From Hysterangium stoloniferum (Eukaryota > Basidiomycota > Agaricomycetes > Hysterangiales > Hysterangiaceae), in the NCBI GenBank assembly GCA_015178975.1, contig WHVD01000015.1:496001-560000 (forward strand): DNA of 64,000 bases, written 5' to 3'. Made by a program: the position numbers and the translations under genes. This document shows positions 1,577-61,057 of this stretch, piece by piece. The notes below the pieces were generated by a model that was given only the letters and a program-made list of their open reading frames with translations, was not told the DNA's origin and ran no database searches. Positions within the stretch are counted from its first letter, which is position 1; each line of letters begins with the position of its first letter.

Positions 1577-2197
1577 ATCTAAGAAGAGTCCCACTGGCAT
1601 GTAGAGAGTAACCCTCCTCATTATAGAGCAAGTATTAAGCCTACATCTTCTTTAAGTAGTTATATGCAGTAAACAATATTGTGTACTCCAATAATTGGGC
1701 TCATCCAAGCCAAAATGGAGACAGGAGAGCCAGTGCAATGGTTTGGGAGTAAATTATAAATACCATGTAATAAGCTACATTTAAGTTATAGACACAATGC
1801 CACATATTACTATATATATATACCAAATTGTTATGTCTTAATCACACCCTGTTTGCAAGATACAGCATGATTCATTTGACAATCTAAAATGGAATTTTAT
1901 TGAAATTGGAACTCTGCCATCAGTACCCGGAACAGCTGTAACACATCTAATGAATATACAGGAAGAAGGTATTCTGAAACCAGAGCAGTCATGACATCAG
2001 CATTATGGGAAATAAGCAAGCACTTTTTGTTTAGTCCAGCAAGGCATCCTATGATGGATCCACCTGACTCCTTAAACCTTAGAGACTCCATTACAGGATC
2101 AAGTTTAGATATTCCAGTGAAACTTGTCTGAAGGGCCTCTGCAGTTGTACCATCAAGCCATAAAATCCTCCAGGAGCTAGGTAATAAACCAACATAG
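1577..2197. other. Interval between Tc1-A and gypsy-A; weak coding remnant
   Basis: AT-rich sequence with no recognisable gene. An open stretch on the minus strand (1897-2091, 64 codons) extends upstream as protein-like sequence on the same strand but has no motif I recognise. It may be an old exon or a transposon remnant. It ends just before the gypsy-A target duplication CATAG (2193-2197). Confidence 0.4.
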
Positions 2198-2762
2198 TGT
2201 TACAACCTGTTCCCGGATGTTTCAATATCCGACTTCCAATCTCCAACTTCCAACTTCCGATCCCTGACTACGGAACATCATAGTTACCGTATCATCCGCA
2301 TTCTTCCCTTGTTCCGCATTTGGTAATTTGTCCATTGACAAGTATTCACTCGTTTGTTTGTTGTATTCCCATTTTGGAATATTGTCTCCCTAATATGTCT
2401 TATTGTATTTCCGTTTTAAGAACACTTCCGTTTCCGTCTTATTATAGTCTTAGTTTGTAGTACAATAACGAGTAGACTTATATTAGTTTCCACGAATTTG
2501 TACTTTACCTTAGATCTGATATCGACTTAGTTTCTTATTCCTCCTCCCGTCTTTCTGTACACTCGATATTTGGAACTCTTCGGAACTCTGAATATCCATA
2601 TCTTCCATCGTAAGTTTTACTTCTGAAATTAAGGACATTGAGCATTTGAGTAGAGGCGTAGCACATAAGCTGAAGCCGACATCCTGACCCTATCCACGAG
2701 TTTCCGACTTCCCGGTGACTTTCCGATAGTTCCAGAATAAGTTCCCGACACGGCACTTAACA
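2198..2762 (+). repeat. Gypsy-A 5' LTR (LTR-A)
   Basis: A 565-bp LTR with TGTTAC...TTAACA ends. A TATA-like box (TTATATTAG, 2478-2486) lies 34 nt upstream of the 11-mer AGATCTGATAT (2512-2522), which is complementary to the PBS. The 11-mer is therefore the likely RNA 5' end (start of R). The LTR-wide shared motif containing ACATAAGCTGAAGCC is at 2653-2677. Confidence 0.93.
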
Positions 2763-2764
2763 GT

Positions 2765-2775
2765 ATATCAGATCT
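2765..2775 (+). promoter_or_regulatory. Gypsy-A self-priming primer-binding site
   Basis: ATATCAGATCT begins 2 nt after the LTR end. It is the exact reverse complement of AGATCTGATAT at 2512-2522 in the LTR (and 9426-9436 in the 3' LTR). No tRNA 3' end is an obvious match. This is the layout known for Tf1/sushi elements, where the first 11 nt of the mRNA fold back and prime minus-strand synthesis. Confidence 0.82.
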
Positions 2776-2796
2776 CAACTCTGCGACTCGCTCATC

Positions 2797-4023
2797 ATGG
2801 GTCCCAAACGCAAAGCTGCCAAAGGACCATCCCAACTTCAATCCCTGTTGCAACTTTACACCACTCAACCTGAAACCCCAATTCAGCTGACAACATCAGC
2901 TTCAGTCGAAGAAGTTACCGAGGAGGTTACTGAGGTAATGAAGGATCCCAATGATCCCCATACCTCCGACAACAAAGCAGAAGATCAGCCGGAGACATCG
3001 AAAAAGAAATCTTCCCACGAACCGACTGAAATGTTGTTTATCAACTCCATTGTGAAATTCGCTGACTATTTGAAATCTGCTGAGGATAGTAAAGAATCAT
3101 CCCGCACCGGAGTCAAAGAACCTGAACCATTTACCGGCAAGGACCTGAAAAAATTGAAGAATTTCCTTCTCCAATGCCGTTTCAGCTTCCATGATTGACC
3201 CAATGCATTTAAATCTGACAGTCGAAAAGTCAATTTCACGCTCTCTTATCTCAAGGATACCACTCAAGATTGGTTCGAACCCGGACTATCTGGATTATCC
3301 GACGAGACACCCGTATGGCTCGATGACTGGGACGCTTGTGTGGAAGAACTGGAAACTAATTTCGAACCTTACGATCAATCCGGCGAAGCGGAAAATGAAT
3401 TAATGACGCTCAAGATGAAGGACAATCAACGAGTTTCCGATTATCTCGTCAAGTTCAATACCCTCGCCGCACGATGTGGATGGGACGATTCCACCCTCAG
3501 ACATTTCTATATGGGACTTCCGTCACGCCTTAAAGACGAAATCTGCAAAGATGGAAAGCCGAAAACTCTCCAACTCATGCGGATGAAAGCTCAAACATCC
3601 AACACCCGTTATTGGGAACAAAAAGCCGAGGTTTCTCGAGAGAACCTGACAGAACATTCTCAGAACAACAAGGCGTCGACTAGCAAGTCTTCTGGCAACA
3701 ACTCAGGTAATAACACTGGCAACTCTGGCACTAATACTGGCAAATCAAACTCCGACCGGAAGAAAGACAAGAAATCCAACAAGGAAAAACAGTCAACTTC
3801 CGACAAACCCGACATTTCCCATTTGTTGGGTACTGATGGTAAACTCACCCCGAAGGAGAAACAACGACGTATGGACAACGACCTCTGCCTTTTCTGCGGG
3901 AAAGGCGGACACAAGGTTTCCGACTGTACTGTTAAATCTAACTCTTCCAAGGCCCGTGCGGCAACTTCCACTATGACTACAACATCCAAGGAAAAACCCA
4001 CCACGGAGCCGAAAAAAGAGTAA
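2797..4023 (+). pseudogene. Gypsy-A gag (capsid and zinc-knuckle nucleocapsid), one in-frame stop
   Basis: The structural polyprotein that packages the element's RNA. One frame runs from ATG 2797 to TAA 4021-4023 (about 408 codons), interrupted only by TGA at 3196-3198. Both sides of that stop match the gag of gypsy-B at 61058 and onward. The centre is a retrotransposon gag domain (WFEPGLSG..., then the FYMGLP-type stretch). The C-terminus has a CX2CX4HX4C knuckle (CLFCGKGGHKVSDC). The ATG lies only 21 nt beyond the PBS, giving a very short leader. An A-run immediately before the stop marks the probable frameshift into pol. Confidence 0.9.
4009..4023 (+). promoter_or_regulatory. Probable gag-pol -1 frameshift site
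   Basis: Gag ends with a run of six A followed by GAGTAA. Pol is open in the -1 frame directly across this point and continues into the protease. Gypsy-B has the same arrangement with seven A (62353-62359) just before its gag stop, where the heptamer is the canonical A AAA AAA in the gag frame. Frameshifting itself is inferred. Confidence 0.55.
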
Positions 4024-7000
4024 GCAACCCTCCGGAATCTGCACAGACAGAGGGTTGCATTGACTCTCTCCGTGTTTCCGAGGTTATCCGTCTCAACGCG
4101 TCCGCTCTCTCTAATCCCGATTCATTATTTGTAAAACTCGTTTCTGACTTTCTTGGAAATTTAGTGTTCCGAGCTCTGATAGATTCTGGCTCCACACACT
4201 GTTTTGTAGATACCACCTTTGCCACGAAACATAATCTGAAACTCCATTCTGTTCCTGCAATTTCCTTGCATCTGTTTGATGGCACTAGCAATACGGCAAT
4301 TACTCAAGCCTGCGACATGTCTATCCGGTTCCCTTGTGGAACATCCCAGACAGTTACTTTTTTCGTAACACAGTTGGACTCTAGCTGTTCGGTAGTTCTT
4401 GGATACAACTGGCTCACCCAATATAATCCGTTGATTGACTGGGTATTGGGCAGTATTACTTTCCGAATTCCCGACACTTCCGTTCCTCCTGCAGCGTCTT
4501 GTCCGGCCAACGCCTTTTCGGCATCAACGGCACCTCCGGCTTCTACCGAAACTTCCGAGCCTGCAAAAATCTCTCTCATCAACACTTCGGCATTTGTTAG
4601 GGCGAGTAAACTGGATGGTTCGCAATGTTTTTCGATCAGCTTAAAAGTTGATGAAGCATCTGGACGTTTTGCGACTCCAGAATTATCTGAGCTAAAAGCC
4701 GACCTGGAAGGAGTTCCTGAAAAATACCATGATTTCACGGACATTTTCAGTAAGCAAAAAGCTGACAGGCTTGCACCACATAGGCCCTATGACTTAAAAA
4801 TTGATATTGAGCCCGGTTCAAACCCTCCGTTAGGACCTATGTATTTACCCATTATCCCAATCGGAACTTTCGTCTATTCGGGAGTTCCTGGATGAACATT
4901 TGTCAATAGGTTTTATCCATCCCTCAAAGTCTCCGTATGGAGCACCCGTCCTTTTCGTCTGAAAGAAGGATGGTTCTCTTTGACTCTGTTGATTTCAGAG
5001 GATTAAATTCCATCACACGGAAAGACAAGTACCCACTTCCACTCGTTACCGATTTACTCGACGCCTCACAAAAAGCTCGGATTTACACCAAAATAGACCT
5101 CAAACACACCTATCATTTGGTCTGAATTGCCGAGGGCGATGAATGGAAAACTGCTTTTCGGACTCGCTATGGATCCTTTGAATGGTTGGTTATGCCGTTC
5201 GGCCTTACCAACGCCCCTTCCGCTTTTCAACGTTTTGTTAATGATATATTTTCCGACATGCTTGACGTATGTGTTATAGTCTATTTGGACGACATTTTGG
5301 TATTTTCCGAGGATCCCGCTCTTCACAATGAACAGGTCCGTGAAGTTCCGAAGACTCCGTAAAAACAGTCTTTTCGCCAACGGTAAAAAATGCTACTTTG
5401 ATATGGATTCTATTGAATACTTAGGTTTCATTATCGGACCTGATGGTCTCTGTATGGATAAAACTAAGGTTCAAGTTGTCTGTGATTGGCCCGAACCACA
5501 GAAAGTCAAGGATATTCAGTCATTTTTAGGTTTTGCCAACTTTTACCGTCATTTTATTCGGAACTACTCGGATATCACAGTACCGCTCACTCATCTTACC
5601 TGTAAAACTCAACCATGGGTCTTTGACGATAAATGCCGATCCGCCTTCCAGACTTTAAAAAATGCTTTCACTTCTGCCCCGATCCTTTCCCATTGGAAAC
5701 CTGATGTTCCGATTATTGTGGAAACTGATGCTTCCAATTATGCAATTGCCGCGATTCTTTCTATTCAAGATTCCGATGGTGAAATTCATCCGGTTGCATT
5801 TCTTTCTCGGACACTTTCAGTGTCCGAACTCAACTACGACGTTCATGATAAGGAACTTTTGGCAATTTTTGAGGCTTTTAAACATTGGCGCCATTATCTC
5901 AAAGGTTCCTCAACTCCCGTTGATGTTGTTACCGATCACAAAAATCTCAAATATTTTTCTACCACTAAACTTTCAACCCGCCGGCAAGCCCGCTGGTCCG
6001 AATTCCTTTCTGCTTTCAACATGATTATCCATTTCTGACCCAGACGTCTTGGTGGAAAACCAGATGCCATGACTTGACGTTGGGACGTCTATCCTAAAGA
6101 GGGGGAAAGTAACTATGCCGTTGTTAATCTGCATAACTTAAAACCGGTTTTTACAACGCAACAACTTTCTGCATCTATCTGAGCAACTTCCCTCTACTAT
6201 CCAATTATGTGTAGTGTCATGATTATGGACATTGAGCAATTACATCAAGATATCCTTTCCACACTCACTTCTGACCCAGCTCTCAAGCCACACCTAGACG
6301 TTCCTGACAATCCAGACCAACCCCGATGGTCACAGGACTCTCAAGGTTTTATCTGTCTCGATGGATGTATCTACGTTCCAGATTCCAACAATCTCCAACT
6401 CCGCGTACTTCAGTATAAACATGATCATTCAATCTTCAGACATTACAGCATTAACAATACTCTTGGTTTAATCCGTAGAGAATACACTTGGCCCAACCTC
6501 CGAGATTTCGTAACCCAGTTCTGTAAGTCATGCACCACCTGCTTACACTTCAAAACCCAGAGGTATAAGCCGTACGGCCTTCTCAAGCAACTCCCGATAC
6601 CAGAAAAGCCCTGGAATTCAATTTCCATGGATTTTATCGAACAACTCCTGACTTCCGAAGGCTTTACATCCATTCTAGTTGTTGTGGATCGATTCTCGAA
6701 ACAAGGCATTTTCATACCCACTCATGATACAATCACGTCCTTCCAATTAGTGGAACTTTTCATTATTCACGTATTTTCCAAACACGGAGTTCCGTCTCAT
6801 GTAACTTCCGATCGAGGCTCCAAGCTCGTCTCCCACTTCTTCCAGGCTCTCGGAAAAGCCCTCGACATGAAACTACACTTCACCTCGGGATATCACCCAG
6901 AAGGTGATGGACAAACAGAACGTGTAAATCAAACATTGGAACAATATCTCCGCATCTATTGCAATTATCAACAGGACAATTGGAAATCCCTTCTCCCGAT

Positions 7001-7710
7001 CGCGGAATTCACCTACAATAACTCCCCAAATGCAACTACTGGCATATCTCCTTTCTTCGCCAACAAAGGCTATAATCCGAATCTCACCGTACATTCTGAA
7101 CGAGATTTGGCTTCTGTCTGTGCTCAAGAATTTATTACCGACCTCGACGAATTACATCAAGAACTTCGGAAAGCTATTTCTTCTGCACAGGAATATTATC
7201 AACATTCTGCGGACAAAAAACAGGATCCTGCCTCCTAACTTTAAAATTGGTGATCAGGTTTTTGTAAAAGCTCAATCTTTCCGTACTACCCAACCTTCTA
7301 AAAAACTCACTGAGAAATTCTTAGGACCTTTTGAAATTATAGCACAAGCCGGTTCACTCTCATGGACTCTCCGACTTCCTGATAGTATGCGAGCAGTTCA
7401 TCCCGTTTTCCACGTTTCCATGTTAGAACCCTGTGTTCCTAACAAAATCCCGGAATGTATTCAACCTCTGTCCCCTCCGGTCATCATTGATGGAGAACCT
7501 GAATTTGAAGTTTCTGAAATTTTGGATTCTAAAATCGACAATCGCCGACGTACTTGTAAATTGCTCTATTTAGTCAAATGGGCAGGTTATGAAGGTACCG
7601 ATGAGGAAACTTCATGGATATTGGCCACAGAACTTGGACACGCTATGGAAATTGTTACCGACTTCCACACGGCTTATCCAAGTAAACCCGGACCTTTATC
7701 ATTACTCTAA
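4024..7710 (+). pseudogene. Gypsy-A pol: protease, RT, RNase H, integrase, chromodomain; multiple lesions
   Basis: The replication polyprotein, in a -1 frame from gag. Visible in order: aspartic protease with LIDSGSTHCF (about 4180-4215); reverse transcriptase with intact YLDDILVF (about 5280-5305); RNase H ending VTDHKNL (about 5930-5945); integrase with a zinc-binding N-terminus (CKSCTTC, about 6520-6540), TSDRGSK and TERVNQ catalytic segments (about 6807 and 6915); and a chromodomain (about 7495-7680, YLVKWAGY...SWI). Lesions: frameshifts near 4850, 4960, 5345 and 7225, and TGA stops near 5124, at 6036-6038, 6075-6077 and 6180-6182. Most of these TGA codons sit where a CGA Arg codon would be expected. 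Confidence 0.92.
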
Positions 7711-7799: not shown

Positions 7800-8926
7800 C
7801 TATTTTAAAGTCTCTGATACCCCAAATCCACCTTCCGGCTCTTCAGCAATTTCCACACTTTCCACCATATCCTGCACCTCTTCATCCTCACTCTCCGATT
7901 CTTCCGGTCCATTTCCCAATGCCCACCTTTTTTCAACACATTCCGCCAATGGATCATTAGGCTTTTCCCATGCCTTATCGGAAAACCTCTCGGATACTGC
8001 GATAACACCAATGCTAACCATTATCTTCTCCAGGAAATCGTTTTGCCTCCAGAAATTCCGGATCAACGAATGGAAACCTTTCTCCTGGATATCATTATGG
8101 CAATCCATTGTGTCCTCCATTTTCATGACTTCCGTCCCGATAAAAACCAACACGTCGACGGTTTCCTTGAGGAGCTCAATGCCCATATTATCTGTTTTCG
8201 GCGTCTCAGTTTCTGCGGCTTTGGCCACTCCTGAACTTCCTACATTGTTAGCTTTCGGAGTCTTCTCACCTTTTGGAACCCTTTTCGAGGCGAGGGTGCA
8301 CGGAAGTTTGAGAACCGCACAGGGATAACAAGTTCCACCCCATTTTACCTTCTGTTTCCAACATGTCATATTCCGTATGGAACATCGATAACACGGAGTT
8401 TCATGGACGACTTCCATCCGTTCCGGAGCCTTGACTTTTGGCTTCTGTTTCAGAAGTTAATCAAATACCGACCTTTTGTAGACGCACTTACTTTAGGACT
8501 TGAAGGTCCAGCCTCTCCCTCCACCTCCATCTCCACGGCTTTTCGCTGTATCAAAAGTTATTGGTCAAAACCACGGAAAATATGGATCAAACTTACTTTT
8601 CCTTCCCTTATCTCCTTCAGTCTTTCCGCCACCTCCGACTCCCACTGTAATTTTTCCGCCTCTTCTTTCCTTTTCTGCGCCTCCGCCATTTTCCACATCC
8701 ATGCTTCTTTTTCCGCCCTCGCCCGCTCCAATTCCCATTTTTCCGCCTCTTCCGCATCTTTCAACTCCTGCATCAACGCTTTTTCCTCCTCCTGTCGTCA
8801 TTTCAACTCCTCCATTTTTTGGTGTTTTTGTTGAAGTTCTGCAACCTTCGACATTTTTTGAAGTACGGATAATTTGGTATCTGAGTCTTCCGGGGTAGTG
8901 ATGAATAACGGCCGACGAATCGACAT
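7800..8926 (-). pseudogene. Antisense spliced gene inside gypsy-A: coiled coil plus Zn(II)2Cys6 protein
   Basis: An accessory gene tail-to-tail with pol and 185 bp inside the 3' LTR. Three exons on the minus strand (8926-8597, 8545-8492, 8444-7800) are joined by phase-0 introns of 51 and 47 nt, each GTAAGT...ACAG. The predicted product is 342 aa. Residues about 25-108 are a charged Glu/Lys/Ala coiled coil. Residues 146-177 have Cys spacing CX2CX6CX10CX2CX6C, matching the GAL4-type zinc cluster of fungal DNA-binding proteins. The tail is acidic. Codon 43 is TGA (8798-8800), next to a CGA, so this copy is interrupted; an ATG at 8773 could restart. Function is inferred: a DNA-binding or gag-pol-regulating factor is possible. 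Confidence 0.8.
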
Positions 8927-8975
8927 ACAAGTCGTGGATAAAGAAACAAAAACATTAATTTGAATATCTGGGAGG

Positions 8976-8983
8976 TTTTTATA
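8976..8983 (-). promoter_or_regulatory. TATA box of the antisense gene
   Basis: TATAAAAA on the minus strand, 50 nt upstream of the ATG at 8926. Transcription would start about 20 nt before that ATG. It lies outside the LTR, so the antisense gene would have its own promoter. Confidence 0.55.
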
Positions 8984-9101
8984 CTCAGAATAACAGCCAA
9001 AACTCTCACCTCCATATTTGCGTAAATTTCATGACACATAACAATCAGCCATCGCTTCAATCACTCAGTACCTAATCGCCTCTATGGGATTTCGGCCTAA
9101 C

Positions 9102-9676
9102 AAGGGGGTACTGTTACGACCCGTTCCTGGATGTTTCAATATCCAACTTCCGATCTCTGACTTCCAACTTCCGATCCCCGACTACGGAACATCATAGTTA
9201 CCGTATCATCCGCATTCTTCCCTTGTTCTGCATTTGGTAATTTGTCCGTTGACAAGTATTCACTCATTTGTTTGTTGTATTCCTGTTTCGGAATATTGTC
9301 TCCCTAATATGTCTTATTGTATTTCCATTTTAAGAACACTTCCGTTTCCGTCTTATTATGGTCTTAGTTTGTAGTACAATAACAAGTAGACTTATATTAG
9401 TTTCCACGAATTTGTACTTTACCTTAGATCTGATATTGACTTAGTTTCTTATTCCTCCTCCCATCTTTCTGTACGCTCGATATTCGGAACTCTTCAGAAC
9501 TCTGAATATCCATATCTTCTGTCGTAAGTTTTACTTCTGAAATTAAGGACATTGAGCGTTTGTGTAGAGGCGCAGCACATAAGCTGAAGCTGACGTCCTG
9601 ACCCTATCCACGAGTTTCCGACTTCCCGGTGACTTTCCGATAGTTCCGGAATAAGTTCCCGACACGGCACTTGACA
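9102..9676 (+). repeat. Gypsy-A polypurine tract and 3' LTR
   Basis: AAGGGGGTAC (9102-9111) precedes the LTR at 9112-9676 (565 bp), the typical plus-strand primer position. The LTR repeats the self-primer 11-mer (9426-9436) and the shared LTR motif (9567-9591). The duplication CATAG follows. Confidence 0.92.
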
Positions 9677-11009: not shown

Positions 11010-11116
11010 GAATATTCCAGTAGTTTCGAGGTATAACAGTTAAAAATAGGTACAAACAGTAGATAGAATATTGTAGAATATTCTATACATAAGGTTCTAG
11101 AATGTTCTATTTGTTA

Positions 11117-11309
11117 AGATAAGATAGACTTCCACCTCACCCGAGTATAGCAGGGACCCTCACAAACATGCAGGGAGCTTTATTTGCACATAGGTACATA
11201 TATACACAATAGGAACAATGGAATCCTAATGAGGAAAATGATAAGGATGTGAGACAAGAGGACAATGGGGAAAGGAACAAAGGAATATGAGCTTGTATGA
11301 TGCTCTTAA
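11117..11309 (-). repeat. LTR-E fragment (copia-type), inverted relative to 13531-13711
   Basis: Starts TGTTAAGATAAGATAG and is an approximate reverse complement of 13531-13711, including the stretch GAGGGTCCCTGCTATACTC. The distal end is not clear. The flanks (11010-11116, 11310-11818) are AT-rich repeat debris with several copies of a motif like AGCTCAACTAGAGGTG and no gene that I can support. Confidence 0.6.
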
Positions 11310-11818
11310 TGTAGTCTTAAGGATCTTGCAAGGATATTCTCAGTATTTATTTATGCTTAAAACTGGAAGAAATTAGAATTGTGCTTCTAATCTCAAACAA
11401 AGGTATCCAAGATTGTTTATTACTTTAATTGATAACCAACAACTCAACTAGAGGTTGATAAGTAATAAAGGCCAGCTACTCAACTAAGAGGTAGCAAAGG
11501 GGAACAGAACTCTTGTTAAAAGCTCAACTAGAGGTGACAAGGGTTAGGATTAGTGTGAAGATCCATTCCTGGAGACTCCACGGAGTATTTCCTGGAAAGT
11601 ATATCAGGTTCTGAACTATCTTCTGGGCTGGTATCTCCAAGCATCCTTGGTCATTTCCTGATCCAGACTCTGCCCAGACTTCCAGTGTTTGTTTGAGATA
11701 CTTTGGTCTGAGGCCCAACCTTCACCAGATCATCCTTGTCAATCCTCTCTATGCCAATATTCCAACTTGCCTGGAATCCATGGCATTCCTGGAAATATGC
11801 ACACTCAGGTCATTATAG

Positions 11819-12917
11819 TGTTAGGATCCATTTCTGGATAGTATCAGATGTCTGTGGACATTCTGACTCACTTCCTTTGTTCCACATATGGTAACTGACT
11901 GGTTGACAGATGTTCATTCATTTGTTTATTGTTCTTGCTCTTATTTCCCAATCTGTCCCCATCCTTGTATCCTCATTTATCTGACCTGTTATTATATCCT
12001 TAGTTTGGAAACAGTTCCAAATAAGTCTTATTATACTCCCAGACTTGTAGTACAATTACCAGAACATTCTATATAGTCTTCCATAGTCATGTACTTACTC
12101 TTTAGCTTTAATCTCGACTTAGTTAACCTTCTCCTTTGTTCTTTCTATCTGCTCAATATCCAGAACTCTCTGGACTCCAGATATCCAGAGCCCCCAGGAA
12201 CTCCAAGTATCTGTAAACACTCCAGATATATCTGCCCTCTGAAATATGGACACCTGAGTGAGTGCATGAGGGTGCAGAACATAAGCTGAAGCCAAGTCCA
12301 TTCTGCACTTTGGTATATATTCTGATACTCCCCAAACTAATCCCTGGAAACTCCCTGGACTAATCCTCCAGAACTCCATGGGCATTTACTGGGAAGTGTC
12401 TGGAATATCCACTGGAGAATCCACTGGAGAATCCACTGGAGAATCCACTGGAGAATCCACTGGAGAATCCACTGGAGAATCCACTGGAGAATCCACTGGA
12501 GAATCCACTGGAGAATCCACTGGAGAATCCACTGGAGAATCCACTGGAGAATCCACTGGAGAATCCACTGGAGAATCCACTGGAGAATCCACTGGAGAAT
12601 CCACTGGAGAATCCACTGGAGAATCCACTGGAGAATCCACTGGAGAATCCACTGGAGAATCCACTGGAGAATCCACTGGAGAATCCACTGGAGAATCCAC
12701 TGGAGAATCCACTGGAGAATCCACTGGAGAATCCACTGGAGAATCCACTGGAGAATGAATCCACTGGAGAATCCACTGGAGAATCCACTGGAGAATCCAC
12801 TGGAGAATCCACTGGAGAATCCACTGGAGAATCCACTGGAGAATCCACTGGAGAATCCACTGGAGAATCCACTGGAGAATCCACTGGAGAATCCACCCCA
12901 AGATCTGGAACTTAACA
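11819..12917 (+). repeat. Diverged gypsy LTR (related to LTR-A) carrying an expanded minisatellite
   Basis: Starts TGTTAGGATCC and ends CTTAACA. The central part aligns by eye with LTR-A (TTTGTTTATTG..., CTTATTATA..., TTGTAGTACAAT..., CGACTTAG). The self-primer position reads AGCTTTAATCT before CGACTTAG. The shared LTR motif is at 12269-12299. The flanks TATAG and ATTAG do not match well, so the target duplication is decayed or absent. The 488-bp minisatellite sits near its 3' end. Confidence 0.7.
12409..12896 (+). repeat. 12-bp minisatellite, about 40 copies
   Basis: A near-perfect tandem array of CCACTGGAGAAT. One irregular unit near 12754 has 4 extra bases (GAATGAATCC). Because 12 is a multiple of 3 and no stop is in the unit, several frames stay open on both strands; these are not genes. 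The array grew from an LTR-derived GGAATATCCACT-like seed. Confidence 0.97.
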
Positions 12918-13530
12918 ATTAGTACCAGAAGCTCAATGAGAGGTGGCAGGGAATCCTGATTGGTCAGAAGCTCAACTAGAGGTTGTCAGGGCATATCTTA
13001 ATGCCAACCCTAGACAGATAAAGCTATATTTGTTGTCCTATCTAAGGTTTGAGTTATGTATAGTGCTATCAATGAATATCTTTAGTAGTGTTTAGATATT
13101 AGATTACAAGGTCTGTGTGCAGATTGATGATTGGTCTGTGCACAACACCTAGTACTGCTTTAGATCTTAACTAGACACACAAGCATGTATATAATCTAGG
13201 GAGTTAAGGACAGTAGGTCCTTAACTTTGTAATTGACTTGGGTACATGGCATCTACTATAGTCTGAGTACAGACAGTCCCTAACAGAGGTGACCAGGGGG
13301 TAGGATTATCATCAGAAGCTCAACTAGAGGTGGCAATAAACTGCTTGCTGCAGTGACGACACACAGATGTGGTGTTAAATGGGTTAAGATGGTTGATAAG
13401 ATGTTCTATTCAAGGCTGGAGCTGAGCTCCTTATATACATTTTAGTCTGAGGCATTTTAGAAGATTCTAGAAGATCAAATGATGTCATTCTGAGATGAAT
13501 GATGTCATTTAGAATTTTCTAGGCATAATA
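12918..13530. other. Repeat debris, no gene
   Basis: Contains three degenerate copies of AGAAGCTCAACTAGAGGTGG-like sequence (near 12928, 12968 and 13314), also seen near 11413 and 11521. A TATA-containing LTR-like stretch starts TGTTAAATGGG at 13373. I cannot assign a complete element. Confidence 0.45.
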
Positions 13531-13711
13531 GTGTTGGATTACAAGCATCATACAAGCTCATACTCCTTTTTTCCTTTCCCCATTGTCCTCTTGTCTCACA
13601 TCCTTATTGTTTTCCTCATTAGGATTCAGCTATGTGTGAATAGAGCTCCACATACATTTGTGAGGGTCCCTGCTATACTCAGGTGAGGTTGAAGTCCATC
13701 TTATCTTAACA
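13531..13711 (+). repeat. Short LTR-like repeat LTR-E upstream of the copia gag
   Basis: Starts TGTTGGATTAC, ends ATCTTAACA, 181 bp. It is the inverted partner of 11117-11309. Its position about 125 bp before the gag ATG at 13837 suggests it is the 5' LTR of that copia element, although I did not find a matching downstream LTR or a target duplication. Confidence 0.5.
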
Positions 13712-16275: not shown

Positions 16276-17057
16276 ATTGAGTGGGAAAAACATAAACAAG
16301 AGAAGACCAGAGTTGCAGGTGTTGTTGAATCTGTTGAAAGTGAGGAAGAAGAAGGATGTTTCTGATTATTCAGCCTCCAGGGGTGCATGAACCTTTTTGC
16401 CTGTATGAGCTTGCAGGGGTGTGTTGGATTTTGATCCTGATACAGTATTACAGTAGACCCTGTAGGTTAGTGTAAATAAAGCACATATTAGCCAAATAGT
16501 GTTTTATTCTATATCTAATCTTTTGACCTGTTTATAAATATTTTTCCTATATGATAAACATTATAAAATATATATAAACTAGCTAGAATCAAAGTTGAAT
16601 CTAGTTTTGGAATCAGTAAATTGTTATTCATATTTTAGTAGTTTTCACAGAAAAGAACACCTTGCAAAAGCAGCTCTCAAAACCTCCTTTGTGAAGTAGG
16701 GTGCATATATTCAAGTAAACTCTTGACTTCAGGGGTTCTAAGTCTATTCAGGCTGCCACTGATTAATATCAAATACTTAAATTATTTTACCTTGCAGTGA
16801 ATTGAGTATTTGCACATTTTGATAGAGCATTGGACTCCTTTTTCAGAAGATAGTATTAAAATAAGGCTAATACATCACACAGATACTAATGAATTTACCC
16901 ACAGCTCAACAAACTTTAAACAAATTTGGGTCTTTCCAATACCTCCCATTTCAAATGAAACAGAAAGTGATTTGGTGAGTTGGAATATATATTCTCTTGT
17001 GTAAAGAAATCTAAAATCTCTTCAGGTAAATATGTATCTTGACCAGTGAACCTTGGA
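16276..17057. other. AT-rich interval with possible truncated LTR, no gene
   Basis: After the gag remnant comes an AT-rich stretch of about 600 bp. It contains a TGTTGG start at 16424 but no second end. Short open frames have no recognisable motif. Confidence 0.45.
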
Positions 17058-17728
17058 CTAAATGAGATTTAGGGTCTGACCCTTATTCAGAATATCTGAT
17101 GATCTGGCCTCCAGGAGCTGCACTTCCAGGTTCTGAGCTTCAGTATACTTTTTCAGATTCCTCAAGGTGGATGCCAAGTTTGCCATAGATGTTAATGTAT
17201 GTGGATGCTCTAGGCCAAGCAATTGCTTGTGTGCCTCCAGGACCTGCATTTCAAACTCCCGGGCTTCAGTATATTTTCCCATATTCCTCAAGATGGATGA
17301 CAACTTTCCCATATATGTTATGGTGTCTGGATGCCCTAAGCCAACCTGCTGCTTGCATTTCTCCAAGACCTGCATTTCAGGCTCCTGAGCTTCAGTATAC
17401 CTTCCCAGATGACTCAAGTTGCCAAGGCTCCCATGGATGTTAAAGTATCTGGATGCTCTGGACCAAGCAGTTTCTTATGTGCCTCCAGGACCTGCATTTC
17501 CAGCTCCTGAGCTTCAGTATACTTTCCCAGATGCCTCAAGGTGGATGCCAAGGCTCCCATGGATGTTAAAGTATCTGGATGCTCTGGACCAAGTACTTTC
17601 TTGCATGCCTCCAGAACCTGCATTTCCAGCTCCTGAGCTTCAGTATACTTTCCCAAATGCCTCAAGGTGCATGCCAAGGCTCCCATGGATGTTAAAGTAT
17701 CTGGATGCTCTGGACCAAGCAATAGCAA
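17058..17728 (-). pseudogene. TPR-repeat fragment of an NLR/kinesin-light-chain-type protein
   Basis: Five to six tandem tetratricopeptide repeats of 42 aa (126-bp DNA period), with the signature GPEHPDTLTSMGALASTLR and GKYTEAQELEMQVLEA. Such arrays form the C-terminus of fungal NACHT or NB-ARC (NLR-like) proteins that act in self/non-self recognition. A frameshift near 17415 separates the distal repeats. The upstream end is cut off at 17728 by an LTR-D end, and no NB-ARC domain remains in the window. The repeats are very similar to each other, which suggests recent expansion or homogenisation. Confidence 0.82.
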
Positions 17729-17984
17729 GTGATAATACTTAGGGTGGGGGTTCCACCAGTGAGTTGACAGTGGGTTTGGGGCCTAAAACAGGTTGCAGAG
17801 GTCCAAAGTGGTGGGATCCTAACAGTATACCCCCATTAGGTCAAGACCCTTCAAGACCTTTAGGAAAGAATGAAAATAATTCCTAAAAAAGAAAAAGTGA
17901 CATAGGGTGACAGGGAGTAGTGAGGATGAATCCAAGGAAAAGTTCAGGAGTCTGAAGTGAGGTACTATAGTAGATAGACAAAAG

Positions 17985-19017
17985 GGGGCCCAGTTTGGCT
18001 GGATTTAAAGTATGAAAATCTAGAATGACTTCAGGTGCATTTTCAAGTTCAATGGCAAGGATCCAAGATGTTTCTTCATCAGTTCCTTTGTACCCAGACT
18101 ATTTCACCAGGTAGAGCAGCTTGCAAACATGTCACCTATGATCTATTTTGGAATCTAAAATGGCTTCAATTTCCAATTCAGGTTCTCCATCAATAATTAC
18201 AGGTGGAGGAGGAGGTTGAATCCATTCAGGGATGGTGTTCAGCATGGCCAGTTCTAGTACTGAGACATGGAATGTTGAGGAAGAGAGACACCACATATAC
18301 TTCTATATGCATTAGGGATGATTGAATCTGAAATCAGGCAAATGAATATTCCCTTTGCCCCCATCACATCCTCTGTACTAATCACAGTCACATCAACTGT
18401 CATACACATATATATTGGGCATCAATTATAGCTTTGCCTCAGTCCGTTATACTATGAATATACAAGACTGAGGTGAGCTGTCTATTTATCAAATAGACCA
18501 TTTCCTTAATTAATCTTGTATGTACTAGAACTACATTCTAGGTACCTAATGCGAGTCCATTATACTACAAATATATGAGACTGAGAACTACATTCTAGGG
18601 TATCACTTTTAACATGCAAGACCAGATGGACTGCATGCATGGTATCAGGGAGCCAAAGGGTAAATGAATGTGTCCCTGCTTGTGCAATAATCTTGTAAGG
18701 GCCAGGATATTTTTCAGCAAGTTTTTTTGTGGGTCAGATAGTCCTAAAAAACTCAGCTTTGATGAAGACTTGGTTGCCAACTTTGAAATTGGGTGCCCAT
18801 AGATATCAGTGGTCCACCAACTTCTGGGTGTATGCTTGAGCTTCAAGTATGGACTGCCAAAGGGTGTGGTGAAGTTCATCTAGATCAGTGACAAACTCCT
18901 GAGTGTGAGCAGAGGCCAGATCACATTCCAGGTGGACCACAATGTTGGGGTTATATCCTTTGTTTTCAAAAAAAAGGGGGAGACCCCTGTGGTGGCATGT
19001 GGGGCATTGTTGTAGGC
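17985..19017 (-). pseudogene. Gypsy-D integrase C-terminus and chromodomain remnant
   Basis: Reading the minus strand from 19017: an integrase end (NNAPHATTG..., FKVGNQVF, KKLAEKYPGPYKI), then after a roughly 300-bp insertion (about 18283-18598) the segment FHVSVLELAMLNT and a chromodomain with DGEPELEIEAILDSKID and YKGTDEETSWILA. This matches the same part of gypsy-A residue for residue in many places. Several stops and frameshifts are present. The inserted stretch contains a direct repeat GAACTACATTCTAGG (near 18529 and 18583). Confidence 0.75.
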
Positions 19018-19759
19018 TGTTAAGAACTGAAAATTGACTAATGTTGTTAGGCCGACGGGGACTGATCAGAAGGACTTGGCTTCAGCTTATGTGCTGCAGC
19101 CTCACAAATATCTGTCAGGTGTCCTTAAATTTCAGATGGGCGAAGACTAGTCCTAACGAGTACCTCTCGGTGAGTTACCGATCAGAACTGAAGGATAAGT
19201 TGAGTGTTGGGCCAAGGGGTCGGGAACTGAGAGTGGGTGAGCACATGCAAATGCGGATAGTGGAGTACTTAGTATGAGACTTCTAGAGGTGTAAGAGGGT
19301 ATTCTGAGTCGATATTCTGATTGCCTAGTAACTACAACTACAGTGGGTTCATATACAAATATTCGGCATCTAGAAAATACTAACTAGGAGAAGAGCGGAA
19401 AACAGTATTGACAAATAAGCTTGACAAGGAATGGGAAGGTTACAATTAGTTCGGAGGCTGTGAAATAACCAAGAGTGGGATTACGAGAAAAGGAAATAGT
19501 CTGAGGGTTACAAGTATATATAGACATATGTGAAATATAGAGTAGAACGGATCATCATAATAAAAGGGGATATATCAGAGTTTAACCAGATAGTACGAGT
19601 ATATTTTGATGGGGGCGCAAACGGAGTTTGATCACCGTGAAAGCATACATCAGCATTGGGAGACCGACGGTTTCCAATGTGATGACTTGAATGATGACTT
19701 GAATCGTCGATAGGTGGTGATAACCTTGGGGACCATCAGGTTGTGACATGGTCGTAACA
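19018..19759 (-). repeat. Solo LTR-B copy with mismatched flanks, joining protease to integrase of gypsy-D
   Basis: A 742-bp LTR of the gypsy-B family, TGTTAAGAAC... on the plus strand. The flanks are TAGGC on the left and GTGAG on the right, so there is no target duplication. On its left is gypsy-D integrase and on its right gypsy-D protease, so about 3 kb of pol is missing. The shared LTR motif is at 19073-19104, and the self-primer AATCAGAATAT occurs near 19290-19300 (minus strand). Confidence 0.85.
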
Positions 19760-20000
19760 GTGAGCTGCTGAAGAGTTCCACATGGAAAAATTACCACAAG
19801 GTTGCAAACTTAAGTGATAATGTTATTGCTAGTGCCATTGAAAAGTTGGAGGGAACTGAATCAACTGATCAGGTTTTGAGCTTGTGAATGATGAGGAAAT
19901 CAGTGTCTGTGAAGCAGTAGGTCAATCCTGAGTCCACCAAGGCTCTAAAACTGGAAGGGGTGTGTGCTGAGGTCAGGGATATGAAAAGGGAGTTGGGGTC
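19760..20000 (-). pseudogene. Gypsy-D protease remnant
   Basis: On the minus strand, RALVDSGLTYCF followed by a tract like that in gypsy-A and ending FPCGTLQQL, directly abutting the solo LTR-B. The fold is that of a retroviral aspartic protease with a DSG active-site triad. At least one stop interrupts it. Confidence 0.7.
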
Positions 20001-20055
20001 TAAAAGAGCAGACACATTGAGCCAGAAGACCATAGTTTAACAGTTTACAGGCTTG

Positions 20056-26249: not shown

Positions 26250-27679
26250 TGTTCGATGACAGCATAAGGAAAACGGACAAGGTTTATGTACGATGACTAA
26301 GCTACTGTAAAGTACGAAATAGCCGAGCGTAAAACGCATCAATGGCTTGCAATACAACATAATCTAACATGCCCACTTTGCAAGTCATTGAAGTGTGCAG
26401 TAAGACCATACACACGAAAAACGAGAAATAAACCAGTTTTAACACAAAATATTGCGCCCACTCGACGCAAAACCCATCCGAAAATTGACACGAAAAAAAC
26501 CCGCTGCGCCCACTAGATGCAGAATCTGCTCGAAATTTTTGAGAAACCCGCTGCGCCCACTAGACGCAATATTCGTCTGGTACATTTGGCGTCGAACCGA
26601 ACCTCAGAGCATCCTCGCTCTTAGAACATGTTCCCCCAACCTCCCAGATTACAAACAAATGCCGGACCTTGGAGCTCTACCCGCAACTCCTAGTCCACGC
26701 AATAATTTCAAGTGCATAAAATATAAGCACTCCCTGCACTATCAGTGGGGATCTCCTGGTTTTCGGTAGGTAATCCACTTGAAGACGAAACAACCGGCCT
26801 CGGCGCGGGACAAAAACGCGCAATGTGACCTTCGCCGTTGCATCTATAGCAATTCTTCGGCTGTCGCATATTTGGTGAGTCAACTTTCATTTTCATGGCA
26901 ATTTGACTCTCATTTTCTTTCCGCCCTTTTAGATGGCTTTCTTCTTCTACCAGCACCGCGGAAATTTCTTCGACTGTAAGTGATCCCACACGCTGCATAA
27001 GAGCAGTTGCTACCGCACCAAATTCCGGAGCCAAACAATAGATGAGGACATCCGGCACATCCTCATCACATAACTCGACTCCAATCGCTCGAAGCTGCGA
27101 AGCCAGAGTCAAAATGCCATGGACATATTCCATCACTGGATTTTTGACATTGTGCTGGTACATATAGAGCTGGCGTTTCAACGAAATCCGATTGGCCCGA
27201 TTATTTGCCTGATAGATTTTTGCAAGCACTTGCCATGCCTCTGGTCCAGTGGTGCAATCCCAAATATACGATTGTTGGCTTGACGCGATTGTCAATCCAA
27301 TTGCCGTGTAACCATCCTCCGAATGCTTTGCCCAATCCAAATACTCCTTGCTATTCTCATCCTTAGGTGCCTTTGTTCCACCATTAACAACACTCCATGA
27401 TCCAGCACGCCGCAAAACCATTGACAGTGAAAACTTCCATTCGTGGTAGTTATCACCCGAGAGTTTTGGGATACTCGCAAGTAAGGCGTTGATATTAGAC
27501 ATAAGATGATGAGATAGTATTAGTGTGACTTTTAAAGCAATGGGGTGGGGCCCATAACCTGTTCGATGACAGCGTAAGGAAAACGGACAAGGTTTATGTA
27601 CGATGACTAAGCTACTGTAAAGTACGAAATAGCCGAGCGTAAAACGCATCAATGGCTTGCAATACAACATAATCTAACA
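26250..27679 (-). mobile_element. Gag-only Ty1/copia-type element (TR-GAG-like), young
   Basis: 1430 bp with 120-bp LTRs (26250-26369, 27560-27679), 5-bp target duplication CAATT, and one mismatch between the LTRs. On the minus strand: LTR TGTTAGATT...TCGAACA, PBS GGTTATGGGCCC (27559-27548) directly after it, one gag gene, a purine stretch AAAGTGGGCA, then the second LTR. The PBS resembles the half-tRNA-iMet site of Drosophila copia. There is no protease, integrase or RT, so movement would need a helper element. Confidence 0.92.
26708..27502 (-). CDS. Copia-type Gag protein, intact (264 aa)
   Basis: The capsid-forming protein of the gag-only element and its only gene. The first ATG after the LTR and PBS is at 27502 (MSNINALLASIPKLSGDNYHEW). 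The open frame also reads upstream through the LTR, but that part lacks gag similarity. Features: the N-terminal copia gag opening with NYHEWKFSL, a UBN2-like central region (residues about 70-200), and a zinc knuckle CYRCNGEGHIARFC near residues 225-240. It has no stop or frameshift. After gag, 26450-26570 holds three GCGCCCACTNGANGC-like repeats in the 3' untranslated part. Confidence 0.88.
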   Translation of the reverse strand: MSNINALLASIPKLSGDNYHEWKFSLSMVLRRAGSWSVVNGGTKAPKDENSKEYLDWAKHSEDGYTAIGLTIASSQQSYIWDCTTGPEAWQVLAKIYQANNRANRISLKRQLYMYQHNVKNPVMEYVHGILTLASQLRAIGVELCDEDVPDVLIYCLAPEFGAVATALMQRVGSLTVEEISAVLVEEESHLKGRKENESQIAMKMKVDSPNMRQPKNCYRCNGEGHIARFCPAPRPVVSSSSGLPTENQEIPTDSAGSAYILCT

Positions 27680-36263: not shown

Positions 36264-38431
36264 CTACTGATATTCCGCTCTAAGGTTTAACCGGTTGTTC
36301 TTAACAAAAGCCACCTTTTTGACCATAGCTGTGAAGATAGTCTTCGTGTTCTCATCCTCCCTCAGGTATGACTGGAACTTCTGAATGCAATCCTTCGTCG
36401 TGGTAATCTCCCGCTCCTTCAAGAACGCCACAATCATAGATTCATCCAGCGGCCGCTTGGGCCTCTTCCTTGGTTTTGCACCATCAACCGCCGACGCCGA
36501 CGCAGAGGCCGAGGGAGCGGATGCCTCATCCATCGCTTTACGTTTGAGGCTGGGACTGGCCGCGGGGACTGGGCTTCCCGGACGGCTTCCCGGTGCAGCA
36601 GGGCTGCCCGCACGACTCCCGCTTCCGGTGCCAACCACCGGACTTGACGCGCGGCTCGCCAGGGGACTGCCCGCCCGACTGCCAGTATTAGGGAGCGGTT
36701 TTAACTTCGGTACTTTCGGGCTAGTGGCGCGTTTGGCTACAACAGCGTTGCCAAGACCAGGAGAATTGGCTCGGGAGGTTGAAGCTTGAGGGCGAGGAGG
36801 CTGGAGAGTCTTTCCAGTGGGGGTAGTGGCGGATTTGGAGGGACGGGGCGTTTGAGTACGATTTGCGGCTAGGGCAGAGGGGGTGGGAGTTGCGGTGCCG
36901 CTGGGTGGCTGCGAGGCAGACTGTGATTGGTCAATGACAGCGGGACCCTCCTGAGTGGCAGGAGGGACTTCTTCGTCCGACTCCGCTTCTTCCTTCGGGA
37001 GACTCAGCCTGGAATTCTGCTACTAAGCGAAGTATAAAACTTACGGGAAGGTAAGGGTTGCCTTCGTCGTCACTATCGTATGCCTCATTCTTCTCCGTTT
37101 TTTGCACCAACTTTCTGAGCGCTTTTCCAGCTCCAGTCAAAGCATTGAACTCTTCCTCTTCCTCTTCACCGTCACCCTTAACATTTTGGTACCCTCGCTT
37201 GATACGTTCCTAAAACGCATGTATTGTAAGCCACCTGTAGGCAAAACCTCAACGAAGAAATTGCCAACCTCCATTTCTTTCAACTCTTCATCCTCGCCAT
37301 CTGCCTCAATCTTTTCATCATCATCGGCAGGGTCTTCCGAATATTCATTCTCGTCAGGATCACCCTCCTGACCCATTTCGCGTTTCCGCTTTTTCCGTAA
37401 AAATTTCTGCTCCTCGTCATCATCATCGCCATCGAAAAGATCATCATCTCCGTGGTCGACAGTGCGGAGAGAAGTGCCACCTTCATCGTCGAAACCCATA
37501 GCTGAGGCTCCCGCTTCTGACTTTTCACGTTTAAGAGTGTTGAGAGTAGCCTCAGATGGTCCTGTACCATTGGCAGCTTTCTTTCGCATCAGCCAACGCT
37601 CGGGATCTTTATTCTTTTGAGCCCTAGCATACTAGCACATGAGTTTAATCAGTATAATTGCAAAATGAATGATTAGGAACAACTTACTTCAGCTTCCGCT
37701 TCCGCTGCGCCTAATATCTTATACGTCGGCCGTTTTTGAAACTTGTACCACCGATGCATTGGAACGAATTGAAACTGGGTGCCCATTGGGACGAGAAGAC
37801 CATGGGTCTCCGACTTTGTGGGGTCGTCGAGATGCCCAACCCAAACTTGACCATTTGGACCGCTCTCCTCCAAGACCCATGGGTATCGTTCTTCACGCCG
37901 TAGCTTCTTTGTTTCTGGCTCGACTTCAAAGACCTGTCGTGTCTTTTTCTTGAACATCTGCTTTCCCTTTCCCTTGCCATTCTTGGCCTGTGCAGTGCCA
38001 TTGGCTTTCGTTGTGGCCCCACCCGGGGGCGGCACCTTGCCATCCGGACCAACCATAACAATCTTGCCGTCCACTCCAATAACAGGCTTGCCGTCGGGAC
38101 CTTGCATGGGGGTAAGTTCAATCGCAACTGGTTCGTCTCCAGCGGTATTGTCTGGGGGCCTGTAGTCTTTACGATTCAACTTGACAGGACCATTCCATCT
38201 GGTCAAGTCAACCTCCTTCCCCCTCGACTCGAATTTCATAACGTCGTATTTCCAACCACGACGGGATGAGGATATAATCTGGAAATCAGTGTAGGACCCT
38301 GTGGGTGTAGCATCTTCGTCTTCCTCGACCTTCGGCGGGGGACGCGGAGGGGCACGAGGACGAGGGCGAGGTTTTCGCTCTACGGCTGCTGCGAGCTCCT
38401 TCTTTAAGGGTTTGTGGAACATGCCCGACAT
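36264..38431 (-). CDS. Transcription initiation factor IIF subunit alpha (TFIIF alpha, RAP74/Tfg1)
   Basis: TFIIF alpha binds RNA polymerase II, stabilises the preinitiation complex and helps start-site selection and early elongation. Four exons: 38431-37688, 37631-37269, 37209-37045, 36992-36264, with introns of 56, 59 and 52 nt; 666 aa. The N-terminal dimerisation domain includes YTDFQIISSSRRGWKYDVMKF and the later PWVLEE...VPMHRWYKFQKRPTY. A long acidic and Ser/Pro/Ala-rich linker follows (about residues 270-560). The C-terminal winged helix begins PLDESMIVAFLKEREITT and ends LNLRAEYQ. The third intron uses an unusual AAG acceptor, chosen because it is the only one that keeps frame at normal intron size. 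Confidence 0.92.
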
Positions 38432-39114
38432 GGTGGCGGCGGCGGAAGAGGTGGTGGTGGATGCAGGTCAACTGTATCGGTGCGCGTCCACACGCGTCCA
38501 CAATGACTACCTGAACAAAAGGAACATAACATTAAGACAAGTCATAATATCATTTGCAATTAATATAGATCAAGAAACAATATATTATATTGCATAAAAG
38601 ATCGTTATCTTGCATGTTTTTATAAATAAAGTAAAACGCCGTCGAAAATGCAGGAGCCTGGGAGATCGAAGTTGACTTGGAATGTTAATGCTAGAAGTGC
38701 CCTGGAATGTTGAAGAAGTGGAATTCCCTTTAAGTAGCGATCCTACTAACCAGCCTCATTTAAGCCTCATTGCAGTCCACAATCTGTATGATATATTCAT
38801 AGCCGTTGGTAGAATCGACCTAGGCGCTGGACAAAAGGACTCGGTGCGTCAGTCTTGACCAGAAAATAAATAAGTCAATAAACTTTTACGATCGACCGGA
38901 TTGTCTGGAATATTTTATGATCAGCTGCGTTTCTAAAAATAAAAGTAACTCCTGCCGAGGTTCGATTCGAACTGTGCGATCAGCGATTACATACGCGATT
39001 GTAGCCTTTCTCCTTTGAGTTTGTTTTCGTTTCAGACTACCACGGTCTCTTCTGGCCTCGTTCTACTCAGTGCCTAGCTACTAGTCAGGCCGCCCTCACG
39101 CTCTCTAGCCTATA
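38432..39114. other. Divergent promoter region, no gene seen
   Basis: Spacer between two head-to-head genes. A tRNA-like GGTTCGATTCGAAC palindrome at about 38959-38972 was considered and rejected as a tRNA. Confidence 0.5.
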
Positions 39115-60934: not shown

Positions 60935-61023
60935 CAAGGGTGCAGCACATAAGTTGAAGCCAAGTCCTTCCGATCAGTCCCTGTCGGCCAACTGACTTTA
61001 GTCAGTTTTCAGTTCTTAACAGT

Positions 61024-61034
61024 ATATTCTGATT
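61024..61034 (+). promoter_or_regulatory. Gypsy-B self-priming primer-binding site
   Basis: ATATTCTGATT lies 2 nt after the LTR end. It is the exact complement of AATCAGAATAT in the solo LTR-B copies, and has one mismatch with the mutated 5' LTR of this element. Confidence 0.8.
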
Positions 61035-61057
61035 TCACACTTGCATTTTCTGTAATC

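Follow-up and report, generated by a model that had tools for sequence, protein, structure and literature searches.

Genes lying antisense in LTR retrotransposons have been described before, and their functions are called unknown in the portions of PMC7264820 and PMC11963269 available to us. The plant Ty3/gypsy type, aORF-3R, is represented in these two texts by Grande gene23, RIRE2 and Retand (TRP28), and a nuclear or DNA-binding role has been suspected for its proteins; the word intron is absent from the main text of both papers (PMC7264820, PMC11963269). Among fungi, Boty/BcGypsy1 of Botrytis cinerea carries brtn, an antisense extra gene (Zhao et al. 2011, as described in passages of PMC7264820, PMC8365987 and PMC4227169). 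In the accessible parts of two fungal surveys the word antisense is absent (PMC3248453, PMC2864245), a figure legend of the latter marking an additional ORF of unknown function whose strand is not stated. HBZ of the retrovirus HTLV-1 is an antisense-encoded nuclear protein that is key to the virus life cycle (excerpts of PMC11963269), and the HTLV antisense promoter is situated inside the 3′ LTR (excerpts of PMC7264820). Finally, VANC of the Arabidopsis VANDAL elements is an element-encoded, sequence-specific DNA-binding protein with an anti-silencing function; its target motifs vary from one family to another and form clusters within non-coding DNA of the element itself (PMC5735166, in the part available).

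The gene described here lies in a 64,000-nucleotide stretch of the Hysterangium stoloniferum genome (the window, by which we mean the whole stretch of DNA analysed). As with the plant aORF-3R genes, in so far as the available text describes them, it is placed antisense between pol and the 3′ LTR and is kept in most copies, and it shows evidence of selection. It differs from them in its fungal host, its chromovirus element, its two conserved introns and its Zn2Cys6-like cluster, and, with four spliced copies and 22 exon-3 sequences as queries, TRP28 (PF04195) did not feature in the Pfam listing at E <= 10. Its likeness to brtn, drawn from partial citing descriptions only, is that both are additional antisense genes of chromodomain gypsy elements in fungi. 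HBZ, a bZIP protein which regulates sense transcription and of which a spliced form exists, has in common with it the antisense position and a (here predicted) nuclear protein; it differs in belonging to a human retrovirus, in its bZIP nature and in a promoter within the 3′ LTR. By analogy, VANC would be the best functional parallel, although VANDAL is a DNA transposon and its protein is not known to be related; the observation at this locus that bears on a VANC-like system is an over-representation of CGG-containing pentamers in the LTRs. Antisense accessory ORFs are already known, and the spliced zinc-cluster variant was not found in the literature searched: among titles and the beginnings of abstracts, none was recognised as reporting a fungal element whose antisense gene is spliced or has a zinc cluster, most subscription journals lying outside the search. 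The fungal case combines a recognisable, likely DNA-binding module, strong codon-level selection, two persistent introns, many copies and two families, and it makes testable whether a retrotransposon encodes a transcription factor of its own and whether LTR motifs and protein are co-evolving.

The element and its antisense gene

The positions of the element and of the gene in the window are as follows.

2195..2762, plus strand: 5′ LTR, direct repeat with 9109-9676 (94.4% identity over 568 bp)
2761..4023, plus strand: gag, with a gag domain (Pfam Retrotrans_gag, E 9.2e-12) and a CCHC-like knuckle (below cut-off)
3942..7710, plus strand: pol, with Pfam matches to protease, RT/RNaseH, integrase, a Tf2-type SH3 domain and a chromodomain
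7800-8926, minus strand: antisense gene in three exons (110+18+214 = 342 codons), flanked by the pol stop (7710) and the 3′ LTR
8597..8926, minus strand: exon 1, 110 codons, Glu/Lys/Arg-rich and coiled-coil-like; ATG at 8926, an ATG being present in 30/30 copies
8546..8596, minus strand: intron 1, 51 nt, GT-AG, phase 0; GT and AG kept in 30/30 copies
8492..8545, minus strand: exon 2, 18 codons; its basic 3′ end, NLS-like by inspection, is completed by exon 3
8445..8491, minus strand: intron 2, 47 nt, GT-AG, phase 0; GT and AG kept in 30/30 copies
7803..8444, minus strand: exon 3, with the six-Cys cluster, a linker, a long predicted helix and an acidic tail; stop codon at 7800-7802
8298..8393, minus strand: Zn2Cys6-like cluster, CX2CX6CX10CX2CX6C; six Cys in 29/30 first-family copies
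8976..8983, minus strand: TATA box TATAAAAA, presumed antisense promoter, 50 nt upstream of the ATG
8985..9108, minus strand: conserved stretch from TATA box to LTR, a candidate antisense promoter and/or sense polypurine tract
9109..9676, plus strand: 3′ LTR, direct repeat with the 5′ LTR, CGG/CCG-rich, with TGTTACGACC at 9112

The element has the hallmarks of a chromovirus, namely LTRs, gag, protease, RT/RNaseH, integrase and a C-terminal chromodomain, as well as a Tf2-1-like SH3 domain (Pfam). The first-pass annotation had assigned the host to the chromodomain gypsy elements, and the LTR repeat and the domain matches from gag to chromodomain bear this out; the coordinates, splice sites, reading frame, TATA position, Cys array and codon-43 TGA of its gene model were likewise all recovered. 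Both introns of the window copy are bounded by GTAAGT...ACAG. This copy of the antisense gene is decayed, as its single in-frame TGA at codon 43 attests, and intact copies exist elsewhere in the genome. The pol of the window element is split over several frames, its pieces being 55-84% identical to the 1304-codon pol frame of a family-2 copy, L081, which is described below.

Copies, selection and a second family

Of 372 candidate places in the H. stoloniferum genome (Agaricomycetes, Phallomycetidae; a 111-Mb assembly in 554 contigs), 40 were scored in a DNA search, which listed 41 matches; the best 30 of these, from the window copy (L001) to L030, constitute our first family. As these are the best-scoring 30 of 41, worn and partial copies are under-represented among them. 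A search with the exon-3 protein, in which 150 of 910 candidates were scored, returned places that were all 73-100% identical. LTR, pol end and exon 3 were all found at each of the 30 loci, and the TATA box GTATAAAAACC, the ATG and the GT and AG of both introns were each present in 30/30. Introns of an antisense gene escape splicing from the sense genomic RNA; this is why they can persist through reverse transcription, and their retention in every first-family copy fits replication through sense RNA. Exon lengths were multiples of three in 26 of the 30 copies, with introns of 51-54 and 47-48 nt. Exons 1, 2 and 3 were individually clean in 20, 26 and 24 copies, respectively, and the entire frame was open in 12/30, or in 13 if L028 is counted, in which one stretch of exon 1 runs in a shifted frame before returning to frame, leaving an open but altered coiled coil.

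For the analysis of dN/dS, 25 copies were used, L012, L026, L027 and L030 having been dropped for frameshifts and L028 for its shifted stretch. In the frame of the antisense gene dN/dS was 0.215, each exon lying between 0.20 and 0.22, as against 1.19 and 1.00 when the antisense frame was shifted and 0.97, 0.29 and 1.37 in the sense frames; the value of 0.29 we take to belong to the mirror frame, whose silent sites coincide with those of the antisense gene, and a low ratio is expected where codons overlap. The first, second and third codon positions diverged by 0.050, 0.048 and 0.124. Intron interiors diverged by 0.10 and 0.22, and positions 8991-9110 by just 0.041, compared with the 0.124 of third codon positions. 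From close to distant pairs, dN/dS of the antisense gene fell from 0.44 to 0.18 (29 copies; the pairs are not independent) and, among the 12 intact copies, from 0.43 to 0.16, and that of pol in 22 copies fell with distance from 0.44 to 0.20 and from 0.37 to 0.11. For pol 6300-6926 the overall value was 0.290 in 22 of the 25 copies, leaving out L005, L021 and L029, which depart from the element within that interval, and 0.595 with all 25. The differences between close pairs are mostly the result of post-insertion decay and those between distant pairs of changes that have been replicated, and thus the antisense gene seems, judged by these ratios, to be constrained about as much as pol in replicating elements.

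A second group of elements was obtained by searching the genome with the Tf2-1-like SH3 model, 150 of 2638 candidates being scored and the best 30 taken as loci L031-L060. Antisense exon 3, partial in some cases, was recognisable downstream of pol in 29 of these 30, with an unbroken six-Cys array in 23; in the remaining locus, L059, exon 3 is missing and an LTR stands close behind pol. The exon plan of L048 is 109+19+166 codons, with a coiled-coil-like exon 1 and a 19-codon exon 2 ending in SPQK. In both families the two introns are at matching places and exon 3 begins 17 codons upstream of the first Cys. Both introns had GT-AG in 24/30 second-group loci, and 15/30 were free of internal stops and frameshifts. 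A TATA box stood 59-60 nt upstream of the ATG in all 12 of the extended second-family loci in which an ATG was found (14 examined). With L031, L034, L043, L045 and L050 dropped, dN/dS of the second-family gene over 25 loci was 0.41, as against 1.09 and 1.13 in shifted frames; by this measure the second-family gene is less constrained than the first. A family-2 search of the genome scored 150 of 1396 candidates, all 80-100% identical, and surroundings were inspected for 60 loci out of the 300 scored places (150 per family).

The exon-3 proteins of the two families are only about 26% identical in the comparison with the window, and comparison of the family profiles (hhalign) nevertheless gave E 1.2e-8 over 51 columns at 37% identity. 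When a profile made from family 2 only was run against six-frame pieces of the window, the antisense exon was the only piece found (E 1.8e-7). The six Cys, K32, G36, L45 and K46 are invariant in 22 aligned exon-3 sequences from the two families. At the level of sequence homology, the antisense gene is shown to share its ancestry across the two element families. Between these families, pol is 76-84% identical in RT/RNaseH, integrase and chromodomain (79% in the RT part) and 59% in the protease part, and gag 33-52%. One family-2 element, L081, has LTR stretches identical over 697 bp and open gag (437 codons) and pol (1304 codons) frames. Its antisense gene is open throughout, has GT-AG introns and is accompanied by a TATA box; an element that probably transposed not long ago has therefore retained the gene.

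The first-pass annotation had claimed real antisense exons, and these are substantiated among copies in the same genome by splice sites in 30/30, six Cys in 29/30 and a dN/dS of 0.215. Its wider claim of a genuine, selected, intron-containing antisense gene holds on the grounds of conservation, frame-specific dN/dS and the second-family homologue. It had also regarded the gene as the element's own; the gene is indeed carried by the element, and is not private to this copy, being common to two families. Taken together, the antisense region is almost certainly a selected, element-borne gene.

Divergence is distributed unevenly along these elements. Of 18 aligned copies, five were set aside for broken flanks or frames; in the other 13, mean divergence was 0.143 in the antisense gene, twice the 0.064 of pol. 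Three copies, L076, L077 and L080, agree with L016 at 0.91-0.99 in LTR b, the upstream region, the start of exon 1 and pol, but only at 0.72-0.77 in the later half of exon 1 and in mid-exon 3. For L080 the agreement was 0.91 in LTR b, 0.99 in the first half of exon 1, 0.98 in intron 2 and 0.98 at the pol end, compared with 0.75 in the other half of exon 1 and 0.72 in exon 3b; this copy thus has an L016-like intron 2 within an L076-like gene. Synonymous divergence between the three copies and L016 in the differing coding parts was 0.44-0.84, and the differing segments therefore look like old alleles moved by recombination and not like bursts of new mutation. At L074 (G000:C510:105100-108100) a family-2-like antisense gene adjoins a family-1-like LTR of the CGGAA type, so that protein type and LTR type are not strictly paired; this arrangement of sequences suggests recombination between families.

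The encoded protein and a candidate target in the LTRs

No domain of the antisense protein reaches its Pfam cut-off. Zn_clus (PF00172) scored 8.8 bits with the window exon, the gathering cut-off being 21 bits, and a sub-threshold match was listed for 17 of the 22 exon-3 sequences, at best with E 0.11. In a Zn_clus search of the whole genome, 83 places were listed, and none coincided, when compared by eye, with the listed places of the antisense gene. The Zn(II)2Cys6 cluster has the spacing CX2CX6CX5-12CX2CX6-8C, and this six-Cys spacing was found in all 22 exon-3 sequences of the two families. In a sequence search of the PDB, PPR1 aligned in register (E 3.4). An AlphaFold model of exon 3 had a mean pLDDT of 59, with two short helices that coincide with CxxC motifs (residues 19-23 and 40-44) and a long one at 84-160; a model of the cluster by itself had a pLDDT of 51, two strands and no helix. 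When the low-confidence exon-3 model was compared with the PDB using Foldseek, 18 matches were obtained at E <= 10, the best at E 0.26 and none at E <= 0.001, and all 18 were Zn2Cys6 domains or a complex holding one. They include Pho7, Gal4, Leu3, Put3, Ppr1, Hap1 and AlcR, as well as 1cld, which we take to be LAC9, and the CBF3 complex, which presumably holds a Zn2Cys6 domain.

In GAL4, the lysines K17-K18 are DNA contacts; at this place, between the second and third Cys, the antisense proteins of both families have mostly R-N. The junction of exons 2 and 3 is basic (SPK|KPKVK in family 1, SPQK|KARK in family 2) and NLS-like by inspection. The protein is like GAL4-type Zn(II)2Cys6 factors in its Cys spacing and in a weak profile and fold similarity that is in register, and unlike them in that its cluster follows a coiled coil in the middle of the protein, stays under the Pfam cut-off and has R-N for K-K. 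As Zn_clus remained below cut-off and the fold models are weak, we call the protein Zn2Cys6-like and keep it outside the Pfam family. Of the GAL4-type cluster originally proposed for it, the Cys spacing stands, with the 18 structural matches in its favour, and full membership does not, given the sub-threshold profile score, the low-confidence model and the R/N residues at the contact lysines. From sequence and model together, the antisense protein may with some assurance be expected to bind nucleic acid.

Relatives were sought in protein collections with searches seeded by short words, which distant fungal relatives may escape. Under these terms exon 3 by itself had no relative in other species among 126 candidate proteins, and four spliced copies had no protein at E <= 1 among 7990 candidates. 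A two-family profile found one protein among 3772 candidates, P0001 of Hysterangium stoloniferum itself (E 1.7e-23), a "hypothetical" gene model of a family-2-like antisense protein, of which it comprises half the cluster and the C-terminal portion. That the protein collection yielded this one truncated gene model suggests that genes of this kind are hidden by repeat-masked annotation. Of 44 stretches in IMG/VR that matched a pattern, none was confirmed.

Zn2Cys6 proteins usually bind CGG triplets, and such triplets are in excess in the LTRs. In LTR1, 20 CGG/CCG were observed vs 10.8 expected and 16 close pairs vs 3.0; in LTR2 the corresponding numbers were 56 vs 41.0 and 88 vs 30.9, the close-pair counts being reached by 0/400 shuffles in either case. 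Among 32 triplets, CGG/CCG ranked second for clustering in the 3′ LTR of the window, third in its 5′ LTR and first in LTR2; the top place was taken by AGC in the 3′ LTR and by GGA, which overlaps CGGA, in the 5′ LTR, and in LTR1 AGC clusters as strongly as CGG/CCG. Outside the element, 94 tiles of the window served as controls, and all stayed below z 5. Six had z 3 or more, two of the six overlapping an LTR2 relative, and several decayed LTR2-like fragments (10.2-15.5 and 21.2-21.8 kb) were not among them. CGGAA was the most over-represented pentamer of LTR1 (11 vs 1.4 expected, 0/3000 shuffles) and CCGGA the second in LTR2 (12 vs 3.1 expected, 1/3000 shuffles, which is borderline when all pentamers are counted); the LTR pentamers are frequent in other parts of the elements too. 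In 29 LTR copies, CGG-type CpGs were retained no better than other CpGs (0.73 vs 0.74). For the regulation of LTRs or targeting of integration proposed in the first-pass annotation, this excess, with findings for and against it, is the one hint. The CGG excess as a putative target of the antisense protein is a lead, and we put the chance that the protein might regulate its own LTR at about even.

Weighing the explanations, and further features of the window

The best explanation as a whole, to which we would give a probability of about 0.6 from sequence comparison and models, is that the antisense accessory gene encodes a nuclear DNA-binding regulator of the element. Antisense transcription would start at the TATA promoter just inside of the 3′ LTR and run toward pol, and the transcript would be spliced twice. 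The predicted product, a protein of about 340 residues, would begin with a coiled coil and continue with a short acidic linker exon and a basic NLS-like stretch, C-terminal to which would lie the Zn2Cys6-like cluster, the long helix and the acidic tail. Such a protein would most likely be nuclear and oligomeric and act on the element itself, its predicted zinc and DNA binding at CGG-type half-sites of the LTR serving to tune or protect sense transcription. On weak grounds, activation or anti-silencing appears a little likelier than repression, because the gene is kept in replicating lineages and because of the acidic tail. A bolder form of this reading would make the protein a family-specific master regulator and counterpart of VANC, which would activate or un-silence its kin by recognising CGG-containing motifs that have become numerous in the LTRs (family 1, CGGAA; family 2, CCGGA), with old divergent alleles being swapped between near-identical elements. 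Competition between specificity types inside a single genome would be expected to give such swapping; we regard this form as unlikely.

What most needs to be set against a DNA-binding regulator is an antisense accessory protein without sequence-specific DNA binding, in which the Cys cluster would be structural and which would aid particle assembly, nuclear import of cDNA or integration as a partner of Gag or integrase. The NLS-like stretch, coiled coil and long helix would suit such an adaptor, as would the sub-threshold Zn_clus matches, the loss of the two GAL4 contact lysines and a divergence between families at least as great as that of gag. However, every one of the Foldseek matches was a Zn2Cys6 domain or a complex holding one, K32 and, between Cys 5 and 6, L45 and K46 are invariant in 22 sequences, and the gene seems to own a promoter, and this alternative is in our judgement doubtful. 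Less probable still is a role for the antisense RNA instead of a protein, pairing with sense RNA and setting copy number through RNAi or interference. Roles of retroelement antisense RNA are discussed in the available text of PMC7264820 and the gene converges on pol, but the dN/dS of 0.16-0.22, the triplet-sized indels in exons, the conserved splice sites and the family-2 homologue point to selection on a spliced protein.

The two readings that would deny the element a gene of this kind are far less probable. A host transcription-factor gene recently captured by one element would account for introns and a TATA box of host-like appearance; this is highly improbable in view of the 150 scored places in each of two families, the position of the gene beside the pol end at 59 of the 60 loci inspected, and protein searches that gave no other relative, and a single capture is rejected on copy number and the second family. 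Chance open frames, or the mirror of a selected env-like sense gene, have the slightest prospect of all. In the sense direction, two frames stay open through 18 and 21 of the 30 copies, and the mirror frame has a dN/dS of 0.29, but the remaining two do so in only 1/30 copies each, the sense frames have no convincing match in the family-2 copy compared (best E 0.04, compared with 5e-7 for the antisense exon), and it is on the antisense strand that ATG, TATA box and introns are conserved. A chance or mirror ORF is rejected on the frame-specific dN/dS, the conservation of splice sites and the family-2 homology.

The window holds other mobile elements. A more distant chromovirus has left a decayed remnant at 17973-20021 (minus strand), its pol 58-68% identical in the C-terminal part; no trace of the antisense gene was seen at this remnant, which is too decayed to count as an absence, and a 126-nt-spaced repeat occupies 17046-17793 after it, where the gene might have been. 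A second gypsy element extends over 58783-64000, with LTR2-like pieces at 58783-59004 and 60338-60934, gag at 60953-62359 and a pol running from 62406 past the window end, and further LTR2-like fragments are found at 10.2-15.5 kb and 21.2-21.8 kb. A Tc1/mariner-like element at 1-1553 has 217-nt terminal inverted repeats (92% complementary) and a transposase-like frame at 538-1278 (HTH_Tnp_Tc3_2, E 3.5e-15), and a copia-type gag lies at 26711-27673 on the minus strand (Retrotran_gag_2, E 1.1e-27). Two minus-strand frames at 36267-38467 match the TFIIF alpha subunit (E 6e-12 and 0.0005, the second below cut-off) and are probably one host gene in pieces. A 12-nt repeat array of near-identical units is present at 12316-12868, within a larger inverted-repeat structure at 11112-13711.
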